A DNA stretch of 59,823 nucleotides, from the NCBI GenBank assembly GCA_017960525.1, contig JAGCZA010000090.1:1-59823 (forward strand), given 5' to 3'. This document shows, one piece after another, positions 29,571 through 52,143 of this stretch; within the stretch, counting starts at the first letter, position 1, and each line of letters begins with the position of its first letter. The stretch is from Prevotella sp. (GTDB lineage: Bacteria; Bacteroidota; Bacteroidia; Bacteroidales; Bacteroidaceae). A program made the translations under genes and the position numbers. The notes under the pieces were generated by a model that saw only the letters and a list, made by a program, of their open reading frames with translations, did no database searches and had not been told where the DNA came from.

Positions 29571-29778
29571 TTACGCGAATTGAACTAATTTGCGGCAGTA
29601 CAGTTATAAGACCACGAATTACACGAATTGAACTAATTGGACCTGACTCTATGAGACCACTAATTACGCTAATTACACAAATTGGCGGCGCCACCAAATT
29701 CGTGCAATTAGCGTAATTCGTGGTACTTTACACTATAATTCGAGAAATTAGCGTAATTAGCGGTCTGTAATTCGTGGT
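29561..29778. repeat. CGAATTACAC-type repeat cluster
   Basis: Three direct units of the type agaccacnaattacncgaatt begin at 29561, 29610 and 29660, with two inverted copies at about 29695-29725 and 29745-29778. The third direct unit and its inverted partner pair over about 30 bp. The first unit supplies the last three codons and the stop of the GH31 gene. Related sequences occur at 38336 and 42919. No gene is visible in this gap. Confidence 0.8.
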
Positions 29779-30910: not shown

Positions 30911-31080
30911 TAATTCAACTTTCGCTAACTCCCCAATGTAGGGGCAGGCCCGTGCCAGCCCGAACCGCCATTAGGCGGTATGTGTGTGCCGATAACATAC
31001 GCCGTGACCGGCGTGCGGGCTGGCCAGGGCCTGCCCCTACAATCAACAGTTTGGAACTTGCGAAACTTGTATAAGTTAAT
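30911..31080. mobile_element. TGTAGGGGC palindromic element, copy 1
   Basis: About 170 bp. The inner arms TGTAGGGGCAGGCCCGTGCC (30937) and GGCCAGGGCCTGCCCCTACA (ending 31041) are inverted, with AGCCCG/CGGGCT and ACCGCC...GGCGGT palindromes inside. The outer ends (attcaactttcgc; gcgaaacttg...agttaat) are diverged inverted repeats. A second copy is at 37162-37360. No reading frame. Confidence 0.8.
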
Positions 31081-31590
31081 AATACTTCATACCTCCCACA
31101 TTGTACCTCTCAATTGTATCACTAAGTCAAAGATCGCGTGTTTTGTCTGATTGACGATGCAAAGGTACAGACAAAAAGCCGCCATCCGAAGAAAAGCGGC
31201 CCAGGGTGGGAGTTTTGGAGAGTTTCGGGTAGAGTTTTGCCCTCTTTCCCTTTTCGGTGGAGCGTTTTCTCCCGCCAAGTGCAGAGTTTTACACACTTCG
31301 GGGAAGAGTTAGCAGACAGAATAGCAACAGACAGACGAATGAAGACAGAATAACAAAAGAACAAAGGACAGAGTGACAGAACGAGAGATCAAGACAGAAT
31401 AACAAAAGAACAAAGGACAGAGCAGTAGACAGACGAATGAAGACAAAATAACAGAATAACAAAGGAGGACAGAGGGACAGAGCGAAGGCCTTGTTTGTTC
31501 TTTTGTTATTCTGTCTTCAGCCTTTTTGAAACTGAAAACTGCTCAAACGGACAAAATTTTCCCCGTTTCAGCAGTTTTCAACCTTGAAAC
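31081..31590. other. gene-free region with a minus-strand -7 element and AGACAGAATAAC tandem repeats
   Basis: A minus-strand TACCTTTG (31167-31160) is a probable -7 element for the M15/HU/smalltalk run; the -33 element is not clear. At 31326-31475 agacagaataacaaaagaac and variants repeat four times, with aaggacagag between, and at 31496-31518 an inverted copy occurs. The same 20-mer is at 53326-53345. Short frames here have no family features. Confidence 0.65.
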
Positions 31591-37161: not shown

Positions 37162-37360
37162 ATAAATAATTCAACTTCCGCAAGATTAGCTTGTTCTTTG
37201 TGAATCGACATTCCGCCAGTGTAGGGGCAGGCCCCGTGCCAGCCCGAACCGCCATAGGCGGTGTGTCAGTTTGGGGAAGAACGCCGTTCCGGCGTGCGGG
37301 CTGGCACGGGGCCAGCCCCTACAGTCGGCGGTTTCAGAACTTGCGGAAGTTGAATAAATA
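37162..37360. mobile_element. TGTAGGGGC palindromic element, copy 2
   Basis: About 199 bp with perfect 15-bp terminal inverted repeats (ttcaacttccgcaag at 37170-37184; complement at 37340-37354). The inner palindrome 37220-37323 starts TGTAGGGGCAGGCCCCGTGC and ends GGGGCCAGCCCCTACA. Same family as 30911-31080. No coding capacity. Confidence 0.85.
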
Positions 37361-38446: not shown

Positions 38447-38483
38447 CCAACAACGGATTAAACGGATTAAACGGATTTGACAA

Positions 38484-38581: not shown

Positions 38582-38677
38582 ACGGATTTGACGGATTAAA
38601 AACCACTTGCTAATCAATAGAGGTTTTTATCCGTTAAATCCGTTAAATCCGTTGTTTAAGAATTGTTGTTCTGTCAT

Positions 38678-42995: not shown

Positions 42996-44180
42996 ATGAG
43001 TTTTTTAAGGAGTTATTTAAATAAGATCAAGCCGAACTTCGAGGAGGGCGGAAAACTGCATGCGTTCCGCTCGGTGTTCGACGGCTTCGAGACGTTCCTC
43101 TACGTGCCCAACGACACGGCGAAGACGGGCGTTCATGTTCACGACGCCATCGACTCGAAGCGCATCATGAGCATGGTGGTCATCGCACTGATGCCGGCCA
43201 TGCTGTTCGGCATGTACAATGTGGGCTACCAGAACGCCCTGGCCGCCAATGCGCTGGCTTCGACGGGCTTCTGGGAAATGTTCTTCTTCGGCTTCCTCGC
43301 CGTGCTGCCCAAGATTCTCGTCTCCTACATCGTAGGCCTCGGCATCGAGTTTGCCTGGGCACAGTGGAAGGGCGAGGAGATTCAGGAAGGATTCCTCGTT
43401 TCGGGTATCCTCATCCCGCTGATTATCCCTGTGGAGTGCCCGCTGTGGATTCTTGCCATCGCCGTCGCCTTTGCCGTCATCATCGGCAAAGAGATTTTCG
43501 GCGGTACAGGTATGAACATCTTCAACCCCGCGCTCCTCTGCCGCGCCTTTCTCTTCTTCGCCTATCCGTCGAAGATGTCGGGCGACCAGGTATGGGTGGC
43601 ACAGGACAGCATCTTCGGACTGGGCCAGACGCTGCCCGACGGCTTCACGATGGCCACGCCCCTCGGGCAGATGGGCCAGGGGGTACATCCTGATGCTTCT
43701 TTATGCGACATGATTTGCGGTTTCATACCCGGCTCTATCGGTGAGACCAGCGTCATCGCCATCGCCATTGGTGCTGTTATTCTGTTGTGGACGGGAATAG
43801 CTTCATGGCGTACTATGTTGAGTGTATTTATTGGTGGAGGCTTGATGGCATTTATTTTTGAGAAGACAGGAAACTTCACCTTTGGGTGCCAAATAGTGCC
43901 TTGGTATGTTCAGTTTGTGATGGGCGGATTCGCCTTCGGTGCTGTGTTCATGGCAACTGACCCTGTTACCTCCTGCCGTACCCAATGCGGTCAGTATATC
44001 TATGGCTTCATCATCGGTGCAATGGCCATCATCATCCGTGTGATGAACCCCGGTTATCCCGAGGGCATGATGCTCGCCATCCTGCTGATGAATATGTTTG
44101 CTCCTACCATCGACCACTTTGTGGTGGAAAGGAATATCAGTAAACGAATGAAAAGGACTAACAGGAGTGCAGGAGTGTAG
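42996..44180 (+). CDS. nqrB: Na+-NQR subunit B
   Basis: 394 aa from the ATG at 42996. The frame is open 13 codons earlier, but through a repeat. Integral membrane subunit with about ten helices. The flavinylation-type motif DGFTMAT (D-G-x-T-x-A-T, about residue 222) should carry covalent FMN; further blocks are FGGTGMNIFNPALLCRAFLFFAYP and VTSCRTQCGQYIYGFIIG. The last six codons (NRSAGV) belong to a GGAGTTCAG-type repeat, so the C-terminus was probably changed by it. Confidence 0.95.
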   Translation: MSFLRSYLNKIKPNFEEGGKLHAFRSVFDGFETFLYVPNDTAKTGVHVHDAIDSKRIMSMVVIALMPAMLFGMYNVGYQNALAANALASTGFWEMFFFGFLAVLPKILVSYIVGLGIEFAWAQWKGEEIQEGFLVSGILIPLIIPVECPLWILAIAVAFAVIIGKEIFGGTGMNIFNPALLCRAFLFFAYPSKMSGDQVWVAQDSIFGLGQTLPDGFTMATPLGQMGQGVHPDASLCDMICGFIPGSIGETSVIAIAIGAVILLWTGIASWRTMLSVFIGGGLMAFIFEKTGNFTFGCQIVPWYVQFVMGGFAFGAVFMATDPVTSCRTQCGQYIYGFIIGAMAIIIRVMNPGYPEGMMLAILLMNMFAPTIDHFVVERNISKRMKRTNRSAGV

Positions 44181-44270
44181 GGGTTCAGGAGTTCAGACAA
44201 TAGTTTATTGCCAAAGACTCCGCGAAAATACTAACGTCTGAACTCCCGAACTCCTGAACTCCTGAACTCC
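44164..44270. repeat. GGAGTTCAGG inverted repeat without ORF, between nqrB and nqrC
   Basis: Left arm aggagtgcag...ggttcaggagttcagaca (44164-44199), right arm gtctgaactcccgaactcct and gaactcctgaactcc (44236-44270), with a 36-nt loop. Same arms as around the IVP pseudogene at 48837-49377. Confidence 0.8.
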
Positions 44271-44285
44271 AATAACAAAGGAACT

Positions 44286-44987
44286 ATGGGAAAGTTAAAT
44301 ACAAATTCGAACTCGTACATTATTATATATAGTGCGATACTGGTGGTCATCGTGGCCTTCCTGCTGGCTTTCATCTTCAAGGCACTGAAGCCGATGCAGG
44401 ATGCCAACGTTGCCCTCGACATTAAGAAGCAGATACTCTACTCGCTGAACATCCGTGATCTCGACGGTGCTGCCGCAGAGGCCAAGTACGCCGAGGTGGT
44501 GAAGAACGAGGGCGAGATTGACGGCCAGAAATACTACGCCTGCGAGATTGACGGTGAGGACATCCTCGTGGTCTCCCTGAAGGGTATGGGACTCTGGGGC
44601 GGCATCAGCGGCTATATTTCCATCCACGGCGATGAGGTTCCCGTTGTCTATGGTGCTTATTTCAACCACGAGAGCGAGACCGCCGGCCTGGGGGCCGAGA
44701 TCAAGGACTCGCAGGCTTGGCAGGAGAAGTTCATCGGCAAGAAGGTCTTCGTCGACCCAGCCGACGGTAGCGAAGTGGCTCTCGCCGTGGTCAAGAACGT
44801 GGAAGACCCTGAGACGCAGGTGGACTGTGTGACGGGGGCCACGCTGACCTCCAACGGTGTGAACGACATGATCAAGGCAGGATTGAAGGATGCCGGCAAG
44901 CGCTTCGTTCAGCTGTTTGTGACCATGCAGTGCGTGAAGGACCCTGAGCCTTGTGAGGCAGACTCAACAGCCATCGAAGCAGAGTAA
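44286..44987 (+). CDS. nqrC: Na+-NQR subunit C
   Basis: 233 aa, one N-terminal membrane anchor (about 10-33), then a periplasmic FMN-binding domain. The flavinylated Thr is in DCVTGATLTSNGVND (S/T-G-A-T motif near 182). Other family blocks are GMGLWGGISGYI and HESETAGLGAEI. The tail after 215 is acidic and Cys-containing (CVKDPEPCEAD), longer than usual. It follows the inverted-repeat gap with a short spacing of 15 nt. Confidence 0.95.
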   Translation: MGKLNTNSNSYIIIYSAILVVIVAFLLAFIFKALKPMQDANVALDIKKQILYSLNIRDLDGAAAEAKYAEVVKNEGEIDGQKYYACEIDGEDILVVSLKGMGLWGGISGYISIHGDEVPVVYGAYFNHESETAGLGAEIKDSQAWQEKFIGKKVFVDPADGSEVALAVVKNVEDPETQVDCVTGATLTSNGVNDMIKAGLKDAGKRFVQLFVTMQCVKDPEPCEADSTAIEAE

Positions 44988-45023
44988 TAAATCGTAAATC
45001 GAAAATTAGTAAATCGTAAATTA
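44986..45023 (+). repeat. AAATCGTAAAT repeat between nqrC and nqrD
   Basis: taataaatcgtaaatcgaaa and attagtaaatcgtaaatta fill the whole 38-nt gap. The same words are in frame in the GH31 gene at 29131-29167 and partly at 14590. Confidence 0.75.
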
Positions 45024-45025
45024 CT

Positions 45026-45646
45026 ATGGCATTATTCAGTAAACAAAACAAGGAGGTCTTCACCAACCCGTTGAACCTCGACCACCCCATTCTCGGCCAG
45101 GTACTCGGTATCTGTTCGGCTCTGGCTGTGACTTCGCAGCTGAAGCCCGCCATCGTCATGGGTATTGCCGTGACGGTGATTACGGCCTTCGCCAATGTGA
45201 TTATCTCGCTCATCCGCAACACCATCCCCAACCGCATCCGCATCGTGGTGCAGCTCGTTGTGGTGGCAGCGCTGGTGACCATCGTCTCGCAAATCCTGAA
45301 GGCCTACGTCTATGATGTAAGTGTTCAGCTGAGCGTCTACGTGGGACTTATCATCACCAACTGTATTCTCATGGGCCGTCTGGAGGCCTTCGCCATGCAG
45401 AACAAGCCCTGGCCCTCGTTCCTCGATGGTTTGGGTAACGGCATCGGCTACGCCATGATTCTTATCATCGTGGGTGCTGTGCGCGAGTTCTTCGGACGCG
45501 GCTCGCTGCTTGGCTTCCAGATTCTGCCCGATGCCGTCTATGAGGCCGGCTACATCAACAATGGTATGATGACCATGCCCGCTATGGCGCTCATCCTCGT
45601 TGGTATTGTGATTTGGGTACACAGAGCATACTTTTATAAAAAATAA
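45026..45646 (+). CDS. nqrD: Na+-NQR subunit D
   Basis: 206 aa, six helices of the NqrD/RnfE type. Conserved stretches: NPLNLDHPILGQVLGICSALAVT, IRIVVQLVVVAALVTIVSQILKAY, ITNCILMGRLEAFAMQNKPWPSFLDGLGNGIGY and VREFFGRGSLLG. With NqrE it forms the antiparallel pair that binds the intramembrane iron centre (conserved Cys in TNCI). Its end runs into an A-rich arm that starts the IVP cassette. Confidence 0.96.
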   Translation: MALFSKQNKEVFTNPLNLDHPILGQVLGICSALAVTSQLKPAIVMGIAVTVITAFANVIISLIRNTIPNRIRIVVQLVVVAALVTIVSQILKAYVYDVSVQLSVYVGLIITNCILMGRLEAFAMQNKPWPSFLDGLGNGIGYAMILIIVGAVREFFGRGSLLGFQILPDAVYEAGYINNGMMTMPAMALILVGIVIWVHRAYFYKK

Positions 45647-46078
45647 AAAATTAAAAAAATAAAAAAATATAAAAGTTATGCAGAACGATAATGTTATGGA
45701 ACAGCTAACGATTAAGTTCGCTTTGCGCATTATTAAACTCTATAAGTATCTTATTTCGGATAAAAAAGAGTTTGTAATGTCAAAACAGATATATCGTAGC
45801 GGTACCAGCATTGGGGCTAACGTAGCTGAAAGCAAGACCGCACAAAGCGATGCAGACTTTATTAGTAAGCTTAGCATAGCATTGAAAGAGGCAAACGAAA
45901 CAAAGTATTGGCTCGTATTACTGCATGAGTCTGAAACAATCAATGATGATGAATTTAAGTCTATTGAGAATGATATAAACACTATCATCGGAACTCTTAT
46001 TATCATTATCAAGAAGAAAAAAGGGTTACAGTAAAATGCAGGCGCAGCTTTTTTTATTTTTTTATTTTTTTATTGTTT
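45640..46078. repeat. A-rich/T-rich inverted arms around an IVP-family gene
   Basis: Left arm ataaaaaattaaaaaaataa continuing to 45675; right arm from 46050, tttttttatttttttatttt, to 46078. They pair over about 26 nt, with the four-helix-bundle gene in the loop between nqrD and nqrE. Confidence 0.7.
45678..46034 (+). CDS. four-helix-bundle protein, 23S rRNA IVP family, inside the nqr operon
   Basis: 118 aa. The family pattern is clear: FALRIIKLYKYLI, then KEFVMSKQIYRSGTSIGANVAESKTAQSDADFISKLSIALKEANETKYWLVLLHES (R-S-x-x-S-I-x-A-N-x-x-E, then ALKE..E..YWL), and a last helix INTIIGTLIIIIKKKKG. Related proteins are encoded in intervening sequences of 23S rRNA genes and in DGR accessory (Avd) genes, and they bind nucleic acid. 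Its place between nqrD and nqrE is foreign to the operon, and the gene is much richer in A/T than its neighbours. An ATG at 45696 (MEQLT) is an alternative start. Confidence 0.9.
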   Translation: MQNDNVMEQLTIKFALRIIKLYKYLISDKKEFVMSKQIYRSGTSIGANVAESKTAQSDADFISKLSIALKEANETKYWLVLLHESETINDDEFKSIENDINTIIGTLIIIIKKKKGLQ

Positions 46079-46091
46079 AAACTTTCAAACT

Positions 46092-46718
46092 ATGGAACAT
46101 ATAATTAGTCTATTCTTCAGGTCCATCTTTGTGGACAACATGATATTTGCCTTCTTCCTCGGCATGTGCTCCTACCTTGCTGTGTCGAAGACGGTGAAGA
46201 CCTCCTTGGGGCTTGGCTTGGCTGTGACCTTCGTGCTCACCGTCACCGTGCCCGTGAACTATCTGCTACAGACGAAGGTGCTGGGCGACGGCTGCCTCGC
46301 TGAGGGTGTCGACTTGAGCTACCTCTCGTTCATCCTCTTCATTGGTGTCATCGCCGGTATGGTGCAGCTCGTCGAGATGACGGTTGAGAAGTACTCGCCC
46401 TCGCTCTATGCAGCCTTGGGCATCTTCCTGCCGCTGATTGCCGTGAACTGCGCCATCATGGGTGCGTCGCTCTTCATGCAGCAGCGCATACTGATGGAAC
46501 CCGACAACACGCAGGCCATCACCTCCGTATGGGATGCCGTCGTCTATGGCTTCGGGTCCGGCATCGGTTGGACGCTGGCCATTGTCTCGCTCGGTGCCAT
46601 CCGTGAGAAAATGCAGTACTGCGACGTGCCGCGCCCGTTGCAAGGATTAGGTATTACGTTCATCGTCGTGGGCCTCATGGCTATGGCAATGATGTGTTTT
46701 TCTGGATTAAATATTTAA
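46092..46718 (+). CDS. nqrE: Na+-NQR subunit E
   Basis: 208 aa, six helices, NqrE/RnfA type: [34 protein letters not shown] at the start (conserved Cys in GMCS for the intramembrane iron site), [40 protein letters not shown] and [20 protein letters not shown]. It is translated from an ATG 13 nt beyond the T-rich right arm of the IVP cassette. Confidence 0.96.
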
Positions 46719-46724
46719 GGAAGT

Positions 46725-47993
46725 ATGGCACAGTTTATAGCATATAGCATTGGAGTATTCCTGACGGTTATACTTCTTTTGGTGATAATTTTGCTGGTGG
46801 CCAAAAAGTATTTGAGTCCATCGGGCAATGTGAATATTGTGGTGAATGGCGACCGCACGCTCTCCGTGGCGCAGGGAAATAACTTGATGGCCACGCTCAA
46901 CGAGAACGGCATCTTCCTGCCCTCGGCCTGCGGCGGAAAGGCCAGTTGCGGACAGTGCAAGGTGCAGGTCTTAGAGGGTGGGGGAGAGATTCTCGACTCT
47001 GAGAAGAGCCATTTCACCCGCAAGCAAATCAAGGACCACTGGCGTCTGGGCTGCCAGACGAAGGTGAAGGGCGACCTGAAGATTCATGTCGACGAGTCGA
47101 TTCTCGGCGTGAAGGAGTACGAGTGCACCGTTATCTCGAACAAGAACGTGGCCACGTTCATCAAGGAGTTCAAGGTGCAGCTGCCTCCGGGTGAGCACAT
47201 GGACTTCCTGCCTGGCTCCTACGCCCAAATCAAGATTCCACAGTTTGACTGCATCGACTACGACACCGACTTCGACAAGAACCTCATTGGCGAGGAATAT
47301 CTGCCCTCGTGGGTGAAGTTCGGCCTGTTCCCGCTGAAGTGCAAGAACCCGGAACCCACCATCCGCGCCTACTCGATGGCCAACTATCCGGCTGAGGGCG
47401 ACGTGTTCATGCTCACCGTGCGTATCGCCACGCCGCCGTTCAAGCCCGACAAGAGTGGCTTTATGGAGGTGAACCCCGGCATAGCCTCGTCGTACATCTT
47501 CTCGCTGAAGCCCGGCGACAAGGTGATTATGAGCGGTCCCTTCGGTGACTTCCACCCGCACTTCGACTCGAAGAAGGAAATGATTTGGGTGGGCGGTGGT
47601 GCCGGTATGGCCCCGTTGCGTGCACAAATTATGCACATGACGAAGACGCTGAACACCCGCGACCGTGAGATGCACTACTTCTATGGTGCACGCGCCCTGA
47701 ACGAGGTCTTCTACCTTGACGACTTCCTCGGCCTGGAGAAGGAGTTCCCCAACTTCCACTTCCACCTGGCCCTCGACCGTCCCGACCCCGCCGCCGATGC
47801 TGCTGGTGTGAAGTACACGCCGGGCTTTGTCCATCAGGTGATGCTCAACACCTACCTGAAGGACCACGAGGCTCCCGAGGACGTGGAATACTATATGTGC
47901 GGTCCCGGCCCCATGTCGGCTGCCGTCGTCTCCATGCTCGACAGCCTCGGCGTTGACCCGGAAAGCATTATGTACGACAACTTCGGAGGATAA
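46725..47993 (+). CDS. nqrF: Na+-NQR subunit F (NADH-oxidising)
   Basis: 422 aa. One membrane anchor (about 4-27), a [2Fe-2S] ferredoxin domain with C69, C75, C78 and C110, an FAD domain (PTIRAYSMANYP, about 208; GIASSYIFSLKPGDKV) and an NADH domain (MIWVGGGAGMAPLRAQIMH, VEYYMCGPGPM). It feeds electrons from NADH into the sodium pump. Its TAA overlaps the ATG of kduI by one base. Confidence 0.97.
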   Translation: MAQFIAYSIGVFLTVILLLVIILLVAKKYLSPSGNVNIVVNGDRTLSVAQGNNLMATLNENGIFLPSACGGKASCGQCKVQVLEGGGEILDSEKSHFTRKQIKDHWRLGCQTKVKGDLKIHVDESILGVKEYECTVISNKNVATFIKEFKVQLPPGEHMDFLPGSYAQIKIPQFDCIDYDTDFDKNLIGEEYLPSWVKFGLFPLKCKNPEPTIRAYSMANYPAEGDVFMLTVRIATPPFKPDKSGFMEVNPGIASSYIFSLKPGDKVIMSGPFGDFHPHFDSKKEMIWVGGGAGMAPLRAQIMHMTKTLNTRDREMHYFYGARALNEVFYLDDFLGLEKEFPNFHFHLALDRPDPAADAAGVKYTPGFVHQVMLNTYLKDHEAPEDVEYYMCGPGPMSAAVVSMLDSLGVDPESIMYDNFGG

Positions 47994-48838
47994 TGAAGAC
48001 GAACTACGAACTGCGCTATGCAGCCCATCCCGAGGATGCCCGCCGCTACGACACGGCACGCCTGCGCCGCGACTTCCTGATAGAGACGCTCTTCACCCCT
48101 GACGAGGTGAATATGGTCTACTCCATGTACGACCGTATGGTGGTGGGCGGCGCTATGCCCGTGGCCGAGGCACTGCCTTTGGAGGCTATCGACCCGCTGT
48201 GCGCCCCCTATTTCACCACGCGCCGCGAGGTGGGCATCTACAACGTGGGAGGCCCTGGCCTGGTGCATATCGTAGGCGAGGCTTCTTACGAAGTGAATTT
48301 CAAGGAGGCAATCTATATTGGCAAGGGTGACCGCGAGGTGACCTTTGCCTCTACAGACCCGCAGCAGCCCGCCAAGTTCTACTTCTGTTCCACCCCTGCC
48401 CATCAGGAATATCCCACCCGTGTCGTCACCAAGGCCGAAGCCGTGGTGGCCCACATGGGCGCGATGGAGACCAGCAACGAGCGCAACATCAACAAGATGC
48501 TCGTCAACCAGGTGTTGCCAACCTGTCAACTCCAGATGGGTATGACGGAGTTGGCGCCGGGAAGTGTGTGGAACACGATGCCGGCGCATACCCATAGCCG
48601 TCGTATGGAGGCCTACTTCTACTTCGACTTGCCCGACGACCAGGCTGTCTGCCACTTTATGGGCGAGCCGCAGGAGACGCGCCACATCTGGCTACGCAAC
48701 GAGCAGGCTGTCCTCTCGCCCGAATGGAGCATCCACAGCGCCGCCGCCACACACAATTACACCTTCATCTGGGGCATGGGAGGCGAGAACTTGGACTATT
48801 CAGACCAGAATTTCACTAAAATCATAGATTTGCGTTAG
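47993..48838 (+). CDS. kduI: 5-dehydro-4-deoxy-D-glucuronate isomerase
   Basis: 281 aa, cupin fold. Family motifs: REVGIYNVGGPGLVHIVGEASYEV, EAIYIGKGDREVTF, PAHTHSRRMEAYFYFDLP with the Zn-binding His-x-His and Glu, and WSIHSAAATHNYTFIWGMGGEN. It converts the 5-keto-4-deoxyuronate released by polysaccharide lyases to 2,5-diketo-3-deoxygluconate. kduD, the next enzyme, follows beyond the IVP remnant. The ATG overlaps the nqrF stop by one base (TAATG), tying uronate catabolism to the sodium pump operon. Confidence 0.96.
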   Translation: MKTNYELRYAAHPEDARRYDTARLRRDFLIETLFTPDEVNMVYSMYDRMVVGGAMPVAEALPLEAIDPLCAPYFTTRREVGIYNVGGPGLVHIVGEASYEVNFKEAIYIGKGDREVTFASTDPQQPAKFYFCSTPAHQEYPTRVVTKAEAVVAHMGAMETSNERNINKMLVNQVLPTCQLQMGMTELAPGSVWNTMPAHTHSRRMEAYFYFDLPDDQAVCHFMGEPQETRHIWLRNEQAVLSPEWSIHSAAATHNYTFIWGMGGENLDYSDQNFTKIIDLR

Positions 48839-49377
48839 GAGTTCTGGAGTTTCTGGAGTTCAGGAGTTCAGACGATAGCTTTGGAATTCAGAAAGTCGAT
48901 AATAATTAAAATCAAAATAGATGACACCTTCATTTTCATTTGAACAAGTTGTTGCATGGCAAAAAGCACATAGTTTTACTATCATTGCCTACCAAATAAC
49001 AAGGTCTTTTCCTAAAGATGAATTATTCGGCCTTACTTCTCAATTTCGTAGGGCTGCTATTTCTATTGAAGCAAATATTGCTGAAGGCTATAGAAACAAG
49101 AAAAATTAAGATTCCTGAATATTTCTGAAGGTAGTCTGGCAGAATGTAGAAATTATATTATCCTTTCACGAGATTTGGAATATATCAACGAAGCTCAATA
49201 CTCTCAATTATACTATTCGATAGAAGAAACAAGTAAACTGTTAACAGCTTATAGCATAGGTATTATTAATAACAATGGAATTAAGGACTGAAGGTCGTCA
49301 AAGATGTTGAGAGAGATAATGCGAAGATGCAAGTACTATCGTCTGAACTCCTGAAACTCCTGAACTCCTGAACTCCT
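48837..49377. repeat. 42-nt inverted arms around an IVP pseudogene
   Basis: Left arm 48837-48878 (aggagttctggag...cagacgatag) and right arm 49336-49377 (ctatcgtctgaac...gaactcct) are inverted copies, differing at only a few of 42 positions. The 457-nt loop contains the IVP remnant. The left arm overlaps the kduI stop codon. Confidence 0.88.
48921..49291 (+). pseudogene. four-helix-bundle (23S IVP family) gene, frameshifted
   Basis: The N-terminal part reads FEQVVAWQKAHSFTIIAYQI, then RRAAISIEANIAEGYRNKKN and stop at 49107-49109. A second frame, from about 49100, continues the family sequence: EKLRFLNISEGSLAECRNYI, then LSRDLEYINEAQYSQL and a tail to the TGA at 49289-49291. R-R-A-x-x-S-I-x-x-N-I-A-E-G and SLAEC are the family hallmarks. 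The frames are joined by a single-base-type frameshift at the AAAAA of 49101-49105. A programmed shift is not excluded, but a dead gene is simpler. Confidence 0.85.
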
Positions 49378-49393
49378 CTAAAAACAACTAACT

Positions 49394-50194
49394 ATGACAA
49401 ACATTTTTTCATTAGAAGGCAAGAATGCCTGGATTACCGGCGCATCGTACGGTATCGGTTTCAACATCGCCAAGGCTTTTGTGGCTGCTGGTGCGAAGAC
49501 CATCATCTTCAATGACATCAACGAGGCTGCCCTGCAGCGCGGTCTGGACAACTACAAGGAGGCTGGCATCGAGAACGTCAAGGGCTACGTCTGCGACGTC
49601 ACCAAGGAGGACGACGTGAAGGCCCTCGTGGAGACCATCCACAAGGAAGTGGGCCAGATTGACATCCTCGTGAATAATGCCGGCATCATCAAGCGCATCC
49701 CTATGCACGAGATGAAGCGCGCCGAGTTCCAGCAGGTCATCGACATCGACCTCGTCGGCCCGTTCATCTGCTCCAGCGCCGTCATCCCTGAGATGATGGA
49801 GCGTCGCGAGGGCAAGATTATCAATATCTGCTCGATGATGTCGGAGTTGGGCCGTGAGACCGTTTCGGCCTACGCTGCCGCCAAGGGTGGACTGAAGATG
49901 CTCACCCGCAACATCTGCTCGGAGTATGGCGAGTACAACATCCAGTGCAACGGCATCGGCCCGGGCTATATCGCCACGCCTCAGACCGCCCCGCTGCGCG
50001 AGCGTCAGCCCGACGGCAGCCGTCACCCCTTCGACTCGTTCATTTGCGCCAAAACGCCCGCCGGACGCTGGCTCGACCCCAGTGAGCTGGGTGGCCCCGC
50101 TGTGTTCCTGGCCTCTCACGCCTCCGATGCCGTCAATGGCCACGTCCTCTACGTCGACGGTGGCATCCTCGCCTACATCGGCAAGCAGCCCTGA
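49394..50194 (+). CDS. kduD: 2-dehydro-3-deoxy-D-gluconate 5-dehydrogenase (SDR)
   Basis: 266 aa, short-chain dehydrogenase. NAD(P) loop TGASYGIGFNIA (15-26), NNAGI, catalytic S-Y-K as ICSMMSELGRE...YAAAKGG (about 153-169), and NGIGPGYIATP. The gluconate 5-dehydrogenase name is often given to this subfamily, but next to kduI the KduD reaction (2,5-diketo-3-deoxygluconate to KDG) is more likely. It starts 16 nt after the right arm of the 42-nt inverted repeat and is followed by a strong terminator. Confidence 0.9.
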   Translation: MTNIFSLEGKNAWITGASYGIGFNIAKAFVAAGAKTIIFNDINEAALQRGLDNYKEAGIENVKGYVCDVTKEDDVKALVETIHKEVGQIDILVNNAGIIKRIPMHEMKRAEFQQVIDIDLVGPFICSSAVIPEMMERREGKIINICSMMSELGRETVSAYAAAKGGLKMLTRNICSEYGEYNIQCNGIGPGYIATPQTAPLRERQPDGSRHPFDSFICAKTPAGRWLDPSELGGPAVFLASHASDAVNGHVLYVDGGILAYIGKQP

Positions 50195-50233
50195 TAGCCC
50201 GCATAGTTTGAGTAGGTGAGGTTATATCATACC

Positions 50234-50277
50234 TTTCAGCCTCGGCATATTCTCCAAAAGATAAGCCGAGGCTGAAA
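50234..50277 (+). terminator. terminator after kduD
   Basis: Perfect 13-bp stem TTTCAGCCTCGGC/GCCGAGGCTGAAA with an 18-nt loop, then TATTTTAT. It marks the end of the nqr-kdu transcript. Confidence 0.88.
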
Positions 50278-50285
50278 TATTTTAT

Positions 50286-50408
50286 CCCAAATCGGCCATT
50301 AGGGTAGTTTAAAAGTTTGGACGAACCAAAGTCATAGTTTGGACGGAGCAAACTGGTAGTTTGGACGAACCAATTTTTTTGGACCTTTTTACTAATGACC
50401 GATTTGGG
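50286..50408. repeat. 22-bp-period triplet repeat, locus 3, with inverted ends
   Basis: Units at 50314, 50336 and 50358 (AGTTTGGACGAACCAAAGT and variants) lie inside a pair of 17-bp inverted ends: CCCAAATCGGCCATTAG (50286-50302) and CTAATGACCGATTTGGG (50392-50408), one mismatch. It sits between converging genes. Confidence 0.9.
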
Positions 50409-50426
50409 TTTATTCCCCCACTAAGT

Positions 50427-51233
50427 TTATTCCCAGACGAAGGTGTAAATAGAAGAAAACTTATCGATGCATCTTGTTACCACACCATCGGTAATGGTGT
50501 AGTCATACGTTCCTGTTGAAGAATTTCCAAAGGCATCAATTGTCGTCTCACTTGCAATCAGATTCCTACAGAGTTTTCCGAAATATCCTTGCATCGCTAA
50601 CACGCTTGGAATGTCAGGAATGCCAAAATAAGGCAGCGCAGAAATTGAATAGTCTGAATACTCATACGCTGTTTCTGTATTGTCGTAACTGCTGCTTCTT
50701 GATACCTTTGTGACATTCCCATTAGCCCAAGTATATATAGTTGTATCGAATACATCATAGGAGGTTTCGTCTTCATCCCCATTCTTGTAATAAGAAACCA
50801 CTTTGATGAGGCATCCATTGCTGTCGTATTCATAAGTGTTTTCATAAGTAGAAGTAACTTCTCCATAAGAATAATATACAGATGATGACCTGACAATCCG
50901 GCCTTTAGAAAGAGTATAAGTAGTATTAGTGGTAGAGAACATACTGCGTACAGTAATAGTCGAATCTGTGTAGGTATAGTATGTGGTATTGCTGCTATTT
51001 GTTTTATCATCAACTCTGATGATTTGACCTTTAGAATTGTATTCAAAAACGTCAGTATAAACTTGATGACCGCCTTTGTCCTTCGTCATTGACACAAGGC
51101 GTTTGCCATTGGGTGGTGGAGGGGGAACAGTACCAGAATCATCGGGATCAGGGTTAGGGTCACATGCCGTTAAAGCTAAACAAACGACCAACAGGCCAGC
51201 CAAGCGGTTCAGATGAAGAAAATGCTTTTTCAT
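50427..51233 (-). CDS. lipoprotein, DUF4595-like
   Basis: 268 aa from the ATG at 51233; the frame extends 11 codons further without support. Lipoprotein signal with LTAC (Cys24), followed by a Pro/Asp-rich spacer (DPNPDPDDSGTVPPPPP). The rest has YD-repeat-like strand motifs: FEYNSKGQIIRVDD, YEYDSNGCLIKVVSY, IYTWANGNVTKVSR, typical of DUF4595-type surface lipoproteins. No enzymatic residues. Its 340-nt leader is unusually long and structured. Confidence 0.78.
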   Translation of the reverse strand: MKKHFLHLNRLAGLLVVCLALTACDPNPDPDDSGTVPPPPPNGKRLVSMTKDKGGHQVYTDVFEYNSKGQIIRVDDKTNSSNTTYYTYTDSTITVRSMFSTTNTTYTLSKGRIVRSSSVYYSYGEVTSTYENTYEYDSNGCLIKVVSYYKNGDEDETSYDVFDTTIYTWANGNVTKVSRSSSYDNTETAYEYSDYSISALPYFGIPDIPSVLAMQGYFGKLCRNLIASETTIDAFGNSSTGTYDYTITDGVVTRCIDKFSSIYTFVWE

Positions 51234-51239
51234 ATTTAC

Positions 51240-51575
51240 TTTTTCTTTTATGCCTCCAGCTCCCAAATTCGGCGGTTAATAATAATAATTGTGGTATGCG
51301 CCTTATAAAACGCGAAAGACGTGGGAGTTCCTACTTATTGCCTATCCCGTATGTGGGCTCTCGCATTGCCTTGACAAGGATAAGCAACTTGAGATAGCCC
51401 ACGCCGTGAGATATTGTAACATAAAAGTACAATACACCCAACGCAGACGCTCCGTTGCGTATCTTCCTGTCTTTGAATTTGCGAGATTCACATACAGAAG
51501 ATAACGTCCGTAAACGTCCTATAACCAATATGTCTTTGATTCCATCCTTCCTTACGGACTTTCTGGAACCGACTG
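51240..51575 (-). ncRNA. candidate structured 5' leader of the lipoprotein gene
   Basis: Between a consensus minus-strand promoter and the ATG lie about 340 nt without a convincing gene but with nested complementarity: GTGGGCT/AGCCCAC (51353-51359 with 51396-51402), inside it TTGC/GCAA and the perfect hairpin CCTTGACAAGG (51369-51379), and a separate ACGCA/TGCGT pair (51441-51460). The mRNA leader probably folds into a multi-stem structure that could regulate translation or bind a ligand. Confidence 0.5.
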
Positions 51576-51606
51576 CAAAGTTAGTAATTTTTCTGCTAAC
51601 GCCAAA
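51576..51606 (-). promoter_or_regulatory. promoter of the leader/lipoprotein transcript
   Basis: Minus strand TTTG (51606-51603), 19 bp, TAACTTTG (51583-51576). The nearest gene start downstream is 51233. Confidence 0.75.
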
Positions 51607-51724
51607 CTTTTTGTGGGAAAAAATGACAGAAAATGCCAACCCCTTCCTTTTGTTACCACATTTGACTCTGTAAGAAAGGAAAGGGAAGGAATAACGGGGA
51701 AAGAACGAAGGCTGCTGAAGACTT

Positions 51725-51803
51725 TAGTCGTCGAGCGCGTAGGTGACGGTAGTCACCACCCTCAGTTTCTTGATGTAGGGGGATGTTCTGGTTATGCGTC
51801 TTC
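51725..51803 (-). repeat. decayed duplicate of the SIMPL gene 3' end
   Basis: About 75 bp matching 52397-52472, including codons for [17 protein letters not shown] and the stop, but with an extra C that breaks the frame. It begins where the PemK/MazF toxin gene ends, so the toxin module lies between two copies of the same 3' end. Confidence 0.85.
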
Positions 51804-52143
51804 AGAAAATCGACTCAATGATTTTGTCCACAATCTCGTTGAAGTATTGCGCCTTGATGGCTCCCAGTCTGCGATTGATGTCGCGTTCAATGTAGCCTGC
51901 GATTATCTGGCATTTCACTACGCTTGGCTTGGCCAACTTGTGGGAAATGAGCATATCGTCGTTCAAGGGGTAGGAATACTGTGGGTTGATGGTGTCGTTT
52001 GATGTTATCAGCACCAGATACATAGTGCCGTCCTCGTTCTCCTGCAATTTGTCGTTGGATACGATGATGGCAGGATGTGGCTTGAACGTGCCGTCAGGGA
52101 AGAGGAAACTTACCTCCACAATGTCTCGCTGCTTGTATTTCAT
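51802..52143 (-). CDS. PemK/MazF family toxin
   Basis: 113 aa. PemK/MazF barrel pattern: KQRDIVEVSFLFPDGTFKPHPAIIVSN at the start (R-D-I-V-x-V..P-x-x-x-x-x-K-x-H-P-x-V/I-V-V/I), MYLVLITSN, and KPSVVKCQIIAGYIERDINRRLG with the conserved Ser and K. A likely sequence-specific endoribonuclease. The ATG overlaps the upstream antitoxin stop (ATGA). The stop lies in the duplicated SIMPL 3' end. Confidence 0.9.
   Translation of the reverse strand: MKYKQRDIVEVSFLFPDGTFKPHPAIIVSNDKLQENEDGTMYLVLITSNDTINPQYSYPLNDDMLISHKLAKPSVVKCQIIAGYIERDINRRLGAIKAQYFNEIVDKIIESIF

Follow-up and report, generated by a model that had tools for sequence, protein, structure and literature searches.

Introduction

The intervening sequence (IVS) of Coxiella 23S rRNA is 428–444 nt long, contains an open reading frame for an IVP within a 28-bp terminal stem, and was cut by RNase III in vitro (PMC4990558). 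In the available text of the same report, the function and origin of IVSs are still called unclear. Among repeat systems, the REPIN/RAYT system is described in the accessible part of PMC3116915 as a gene that resides close to inverted repeats, other copies of the repeat being scattered through the genome as short gene-less hairpins or singlets. Heptameric SSRs of Xanthomonas and Nostoc are intergenic, with 70 inverted pairs in X. campestris and a role still to be elucidated; the available text adds that heptameric repeats are over-represented in many bacterial genomes and lack detailed study (PMC4692102). The BrickBuilt MITE of Porphyromonas carries a 23-nt tandem unit between IS-like ends, according to the text available for PMC4596501. 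A literature search that reached a minority of the subscription papers found no description of IVP genes between repeat arms outside rRNA. In the window (the whole stretch of 59,823 nt that was analysed), an IVP gene remnant is located between inverted arms in a protein operon.

Structure of the kdu element

The element was composed of two inverted arms and an IVP remnant, and was flanked by two protein genes.

47993-48838, + strand: kduI (5-dehydro-4-deoxy-D-glucuronate isomerase), stop overlapping the arm start
48837-48878, + strand: left inverted arm, tandem units of about 8 nt (AGGAGTTC), inner end GACGATAG
48921-49109, + strand: IVP (PF05635) remnant, N-terminal piece, 62 aa
49094-49291, + strand: IVP remnant, C-terminal piece, in another frame
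49336-49377, + strand: right inverted arm, reverse complement of the left arm
49394-50194, + strand: gene 3' of the element, gluconate 5-dehydrogenase/KduD-type SDR

The arms were 42 nt each and lay where the earlier note had placed them, but they were 83% complementary when aligned without gaps, and its term "near-perfect" was somewhat strong. The gapped local score of the arms was 31, compared with a best score of 14.5 among 200 shuffles. The frameshifted IVP-family gene claimed for the loop was confirmed. The 62-residue piece matched PF05635 in Pfam with an E value of 2.5e-18 (piece residues 9–61), and the profile matches formed two rows in different frames (48945-49130 and 49085-49246), with the frame break at about 49094-49109. 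The C-terminal piece as given (38 aa) had no Pfam match.

The gene 5' of the element was of the KduI type (NF002091, 421 bits; cut-off 250), as had been claimed. The gene 3' of the element scored 466 bits with the gluconate 5-dehydrogenase model NF005488 (cut-off 369) but 202 bits with the KduD model TIGR01832, under the cut-off of 338.85, so that its earlier name "kduD" is approximate. The RNA of 48830-49385 was predicted to fold with -148.2 kcal/mol (z -5.2), and 0 of 100 shuffles were as low, which agrees with the long stem that the arms had been expected to give. On balance, we regard 48837-49377 as the decayed representative of a composite element that is widespread and in which an IVP gene lies between inverted arms. 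Upstream genes often had their stops within the first repeat unit or at its edge, for example kduI (48837) and nqrB (44180).

Other structures in the window

The window contained three such structures, namely the kdu remnant, an intact IVP element between nqrD and nqrE, and, in the nqrB-nqrC gap, a hairpin that lacks an IVP.

44164-44270, no strand assigned: IVP-less hairpin, nqrB-nqrC, arms 44164-44204 and 44230-44270
45637-45667, + strand: left arm of the second element, AAAAAAT units
45678-46034, + strand: intact IVP gene of the second subfamily (RSGTSIGAN type), between nqrD and nqrE
46049-46079, + strand: right arm of the second element

The latter two structures were absent from the earlier note, as were the tandem-repeat nature of the arms with their locus-specific unit and the dispersed IVP-less hairpins described below. 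The nqrB-nqrC hairpin shared its arm unit and inner motif with the kdu element, and the arms of the nqrD-nqrE element differed from the kdu arms. An Rfam search of window positions 44000-52000 gave three weak "mir" matches, all on the 44164-44270 hairpin and below the gathering scores.

The nqr junctions were compared in 29 relatives, fetched from the 30 best nqrC matches (own genome included; a match was present in 52 of 60 genomes). The nqrD-nqrE gap was 3 nt in 21 of the 29 relatives and no longer than 46 nt in all of them. The nqrB-nqrC gap ranged from -7 to 20 nt in 28 relatives and was 89 nt in L281. Because of these short gaps, both nqr structures of the window look like insertions. A single tandem array was present within the short nqrB-nqrC gap of L277, L283, L284, and L294. 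One in-frame TAA each was seen inside the nqrC match of L301 and L302.

Inverted arms of AACGGATTA-type tandem units were also found at 38449-38476 and 38629-38656, about 150 nt apart; this pair is too close for an IVP gene and is possibly another short form. More inverted repeats were located at 29654-29766, 30937-31041, 37220-37323, and 31340-31519, and their types included TAATTACGC-type arms, TGTAGGGGCAGGCCC-type pairs (twice), and TGAAGACAGAATAACAAAAGAACAAA.

Occurrence of inverted arms around IVP genes

In the genome of the window, all 10 IVP genes scored above their shuffles, the weakest being L006 (score 19), with hardly tandem arms. A threshold of 15 for the inverted-arm score was applied to the wider samples. 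IVP matches were present in 52 of 60 genomes of the genus, and arms at or above the threshold flanked 112 of 120 IVP genes, compared with 4 of 600 windows placed at random in these loci. The genus sample comprised 29 new loci (L012-L040) and 80 stretches taken from a longer list, with places near contig ends mostly skipped; three partial rows, L011, L041 (the gene already counted as L009), and L148, were excluded, as was one of the remaining 121 genes, which was near a contig end. Of 135 small genes other than IVP, taken from 1.2 Mb of four genomes, 3 had such arms, and the two IVP genes met there scored 11.0 and 10.5. The median size of the element in the genus was 500 nt. The search for IVP genes between inverted arms outside rRNA, which the earlier note had proposed for this genus, thus found them to be common.

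Arms were also frequent beyond the genus. In the phylum sample, where 157 of 198 genomes had IVP matches, arms scored at least 15 at 17 of 30 loci and in 1 of 150 control windows; among named relatives, which were ranked by similarity rather than sampled at random, the corresponding values were 59 of 82 and 5 of 410. Genes near an end were skipped in both counts. When the 75 named-relative loci with both flanking genes were sorted by phylum, at least one copy had arms in 12 of the 13 ranked phyla, from 10 of 10 copies in Acidobacteriota to 0 of 1 in Nitrospirota. Eight genomes from outside Bacteroidota gave 29 rows, of which 25 reached the threshold (2 of 145 controls); after L467 and L472 were counted as one gene and 8 genes already among the named relatives were removed, 17 of the 20 new genes had arms. 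In the class of Thiohalocapsa, which we take to be Gammaproteobacteria, 77 of 369 sampled genomes had IVP matches, and arms were present at 22 of 29 new loci (2 of 145 controls). Four of five cyanobacterial plasmid copies scored at least 15, two of them near-identical. Copies with scores under 15 made up 8 of 120 in the genus and 13 of 30 in the phylum sample.

A search of the IVP loci for 23S and 16S signatures found none. Since this search lacked a positive control, 60 loci including L009 were submitted to Rfam, and rRNA was found in none at the gathering scores. The pattern is a class that recurs in many phyla and not a single curiosity.

Tandem units and matching of the arms

The arms consisted mostly of tandem units of 7–8 nt, which differed between loci yet matched across one element. 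Among arms scoring at least 15, a period of 6–10 nt was significant in 93 of 103 in the genus (57 with period 7 and 26 with period 8), in 13 of 17 in the phylum sample, and in 53 of 53 in the named sample (48 with period 7). At five of six junctions, the two arms of one element matched each other better than did arms of different elements located there; the normalised within-element and between-element scores were 0.53 and 0.18 for sdhA-sdhB and 0.65 and 0.24 for kdu, respectively. The exception was serC-serA (0.77 within and 0.76 between). This comparison used elements scoring at least 15, which favours the within-element scores, and two IVP subfamilies were pooled in the sets for kdu and pta-ackA.

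If an RNA stem were seen by selection between rounds of copying, G.U-type mismatches should prevail. The mismatches of the arms were 138 of the G.U type and 137 of the A.C type, and in codirectional hosts 147 and 154, respectively. A G.U bias as proof of RNA selection on the arms was therefore rejected, and the lack of a G.U excess was read as arm-to-arm copying; we infer that one arm is copied onto the other at the DNA level, which would most simply keep the two matched while the unit changes.

A small GC-rich hairpin, such as GGCTTCGCC, was seen at the equal place in both arms of L131, L118, L150, L125, and L077. Very long arms were found in L232 (Planctomycetota), with more than 250 nt of GGTGGAC type per side, and in L228 (Acidobacteriota), with 155 matched nt of AGTTCTC units per side; both lengths may have been truncated, as the search window was 350 nt.

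Position, orientation, and history

When the two neighbouring genes were codirectional, the IVP gene was read in the sense direction in 93 of 93 cases in the genus, with 0 antisense, and in 26 of 26 in the phylum sample; in the named sample, 49 were sense and 5 antisense. Genes were called as open frames for these counts, and the broken copy of the window and genes lacking two flanking frames were left out. The gene upstream of the IVP was codirectional with it in 108 of 111 cases in the genus. The outer arm began 2 nt after the upstream stop and ended 10 nt before the next start in the genus medians, and the medians of the named sample were 22 and 14 nt, respectively. Two of the five cyanobacterial plasmid copies (L263 and L265) were antisense to both neighbours.

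The IVP genes were grouped by junction, with 22 changes in a quick tree of 214 rows compared with 61 when shuffled. In a 37-row tree, all 18 IVP copies at sdhA-sdhB fell into one clade together with one other row (support 99). The 18 copies range over this genus, Capnocytophaga, other Flavobacteriaceae, and Mucilaginibacter; the gene names at the junction were checked for L012 and L252, and the label needed 4 changes in the wide 214-row tree. Arm scores were below 15 in four Flavobacteriaceae copies at this junction. The insertion at sdhA-sdhB looks old. Both IVP subfamilies were present at kduI-kduD and at pta-ackA, which means that each of these junctions was settled at least twice.

The kdu junction was compared among the 30 best kduI matches of the genus, of which 27 hold both genes. 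Six junctions, including that of the window, had an IVP element (gap of 508–579 nt). The other 21 comprised 17 gaps of 7–77 nt and four of 120–181 nt (L068, L053, L061, and L062). Read by eye, the gap of L068 holds an IVP-less hairpin in the style of IVP elements, and that of L053 a lone right arm with the inner motif. The median dN/dS of the IVP gene was 0.105, with all 16 pairs, which overlap, below 1. Judged from these ratios, the IVP protein is under purifying selection.

Gene-less hairpins and single arms

The unit of the kdu element occurred in its own genome in two other hairpins whose arms enclose no IVP (window 44164-44270 and contig C38) and in a few weaker single matches (C21, C32, and C139). 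The GAATTGAA unit, carried by the IVP elements L099, L100, and L111 of G001, G035, and G022, matched 237, 102, and 76 times in these genomes, respectively, and the GGAGTTCA unit, carried by the kdu element L028 of G009, matched 216 times in G009. These values are overlapping matches and not separate loci, and the control, the pattern read backwards, is a tandem repeat too and itself matched up to 45 times (G053) in one count and a few times in another. Two predictions were set beforehand. GGTACGG was expected to be most frequent in G034 and was found there 132 times and in none of the other 59 genomes. TTGAACG, expected to be most frequent in G033, was second there (73) behind G059 (122), and this prediction was half met.

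G034 had at least 15 hairpins without an IVP: of 19 fetched non-IVP stretches, 15 were hairpins, most of them about 125 nt long. Their alignment ran from one arm to the other through the inner motif, with flanks that mostly differed, and the IVP copy of this genome shared these arms and this motif. The 20 stretches were not a random set: 12 were chosen for two close matches, one was the IVP copy, and the other seven, exact matches with no listed partner, were three hairpins and four single arms. For two other units, the distinct matches were 18 single arms, 3 hairpins, and 1 IVP element (n = 22) and 15, 10, and 1 (n = 26), respectively.

Dispersed arrays amounted to 15.5 and 6.5 per 100 kb in G009 and G001, which have IVP, and to 6.5 and 1.0 in G010 and G024, in which no PF05635 match was found. 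An inverted partner was present for 7 of 62 arrays in G009, 4 of 26 in G001, 2 of 13 in G010, 2 of 2 in G024, and 6 of 7 in the window. A rule that arrays need an IVP was rejected, as G010 has arrays and no PF05635 match.

Comparison with known systems

By gene, the nearest relative of the element is the rRNA IVS, and by organisation the nearest pattern is REPIN/RAYT, as far as the available text of PMC3116915 describes it. Like the IVS, the element has terminal inverted repeats, predicted to form a stem, with an IVP-family frame in the loop; this frame is broken in the kdu copy. The sizes are also similar (a genus median of 500 nt, with the Coxiella length taken from the available part of PMC4990558). 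It differs in that the window copy lies between protein genes and not inside an rRNA gene, in that the arms are mostly arrays of 7–8-nt units that change with the locus, and in having related IVP-less hairpins. Gene-less inverted doublets of the REPIN kind were dispersed in the own genome (two) and in G034 (at least 15), and other units were found mostly as single arms. Unlike the RAYT transposase, however, the gene here encodes a four-helix-bundle protein, and the kdu N-terminal piece and the nqr IVP matched PF05635 alone in Pfam; the arms are also tandem arrays.

The intergenic heptamer arrays and inverted pairs of Xanthomonas and Nostoc resemble the arms, but the available text of PMC4692102 names no gene for them, whereas an IVP gene lies inside the arrays here. 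X. campestris XCC0516 is an IVP (PDB code 2gsc), and the solved IVP relatives, 2gsc and 2rld, have five chains each. L498, the nearer of two copies tried, is identical to 2gsc at 56 of 102 residues and has 17-nt AGGGAAT-type arms. BrickBuilt likewise combines a tandem repeat with a small inverted-repeat element in a Bacteroidota genome, but its unit is 23 nt, its ends are IS-like, and the term "four helix" is absent from the paper (PMC4596501).

Avd of diversity-generating retroelements (DGRs) belongs to a related four-helix-bundle family. The kdu IVP piece matched NF033474 weakly (E 0.0035), but its 17.6 bits are far from the cut-off of 80, and the nqr IVP gave no match. Read by eye, ten similar copies in the 1.5-Mb genome G589 (L503-L512) resemble DGR Avd genes, and at L503 the Avd-like frame has an RT-like frame behind it and a variable-repeat-like frame before it.

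Proposed explanation and alternatives

We consider it somewhat probable that these structures form a repeat-element family that is carried in mRNAs and has the IVP as its resident gene. The long form would carry the IVP, and the short forms would be IVP-less hairpins or single arms. The inverted arms are mostly arrays of 7–8-nt units, often with a short shared inner motif, and the element is typically located directly after a stop codon, between codirectional genes and reading with them. From this placement, the IVP is probably expressed from the message of the host operon. The arms are predicted to form a long hairpin in that message, and a double-strand RNase may cut the stem. By analogy with RAYT and REPINs, the IVP protein probably acts on the hairpins, which is the weakest step. 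The IVP core had a near-zero charge (median net charges of -1 and +1), and a basic protein was rejected on this ground; we know of no catalytic site in IVP. Several further findings count against this reading. Arrays occur in G010 at 6.5 per 100 kb with no PF05635 match, most arrays in G009, G001, and G010 have no inverted partner, and single arms outnumber hairpins for two units. The TTGAACG prediction was half met, part of each sample has no arms, including the four Flavobacteriaceae copies at sdhA-sdhB, and two of five cyanobacterial plasmid copies are antisense to both neighbours.

RNase III does not need a tandem-repeat arm. This, together with arm mismatches that show no G.U bias, argues against an mRNA intervening sequence, in which RNase III would cut the predicted stem, release the IVP RNA, and separate the flanking messages, with selection keeping the stem. 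Position, sense orientation, and strong predicted folding agree with this idea, which the earlier note had put forward, and a Coxiella rRNA IVS with a stem and an IVP frame is cut by RNase III in vitro (PMC4990558, available text); we nevertheless judge it unlikely. The arrays might instead arise from slippage between genes, with IVP elements sitting in or copying local repeats and the IVP having no role. Arrays in a genome with no PF05635 match, and the many single dispersed arrays, would suit such a passenger. It is made very unlikely by inverted arms at 112 of 120 IVP genes compared with 3 of 135 other small genes, and by the 15 IVP-less copies of G034, which align over both arms and the inner motif although their flanks mostly differ. 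Least probable of all is an operon device kept at certain junctions for tuning the ratio of the two flanking gene products. The reuse of kduI-kduD and pta-ackA by both subfamilies, the single sdhA-sdhB clade of 18 copies (support 99, 37-row tree), and the grouping by junction (22 changes compared with 61) are in its favour, but 21 of 27 kdu junctions have no IVP element, no nqrD-nqrE gap exceeds 46 nt in 29 relatives, and a protein under selection would be needless for hairpin tuning.

The comparison as a whole points to a widespread, little-described repeat element with intact copies in many phyla, usually between genes that are read together. The analysis links IVP genes with inverted heptamer or octamer arrays in many phyla, mostly in the sense direction between codirectional genes and accompanied by gene-less copies of these arms. 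More tentatively, and with doubt prevailing, IVP genes may be the resident genes of a bacterial repeat system that propagates such arrays as RAYTs go with REPINs; this would account for a considerable share of the heptameric repeats that still lack an explanation in bacterial genomes, and rRNA IVSs would be a side branch that landed in rRNA. Through the link between IVP and arrays, the questions of IVS function and origin and of the heptameric repeats become testable with one element family in culturable Bacteroidota.
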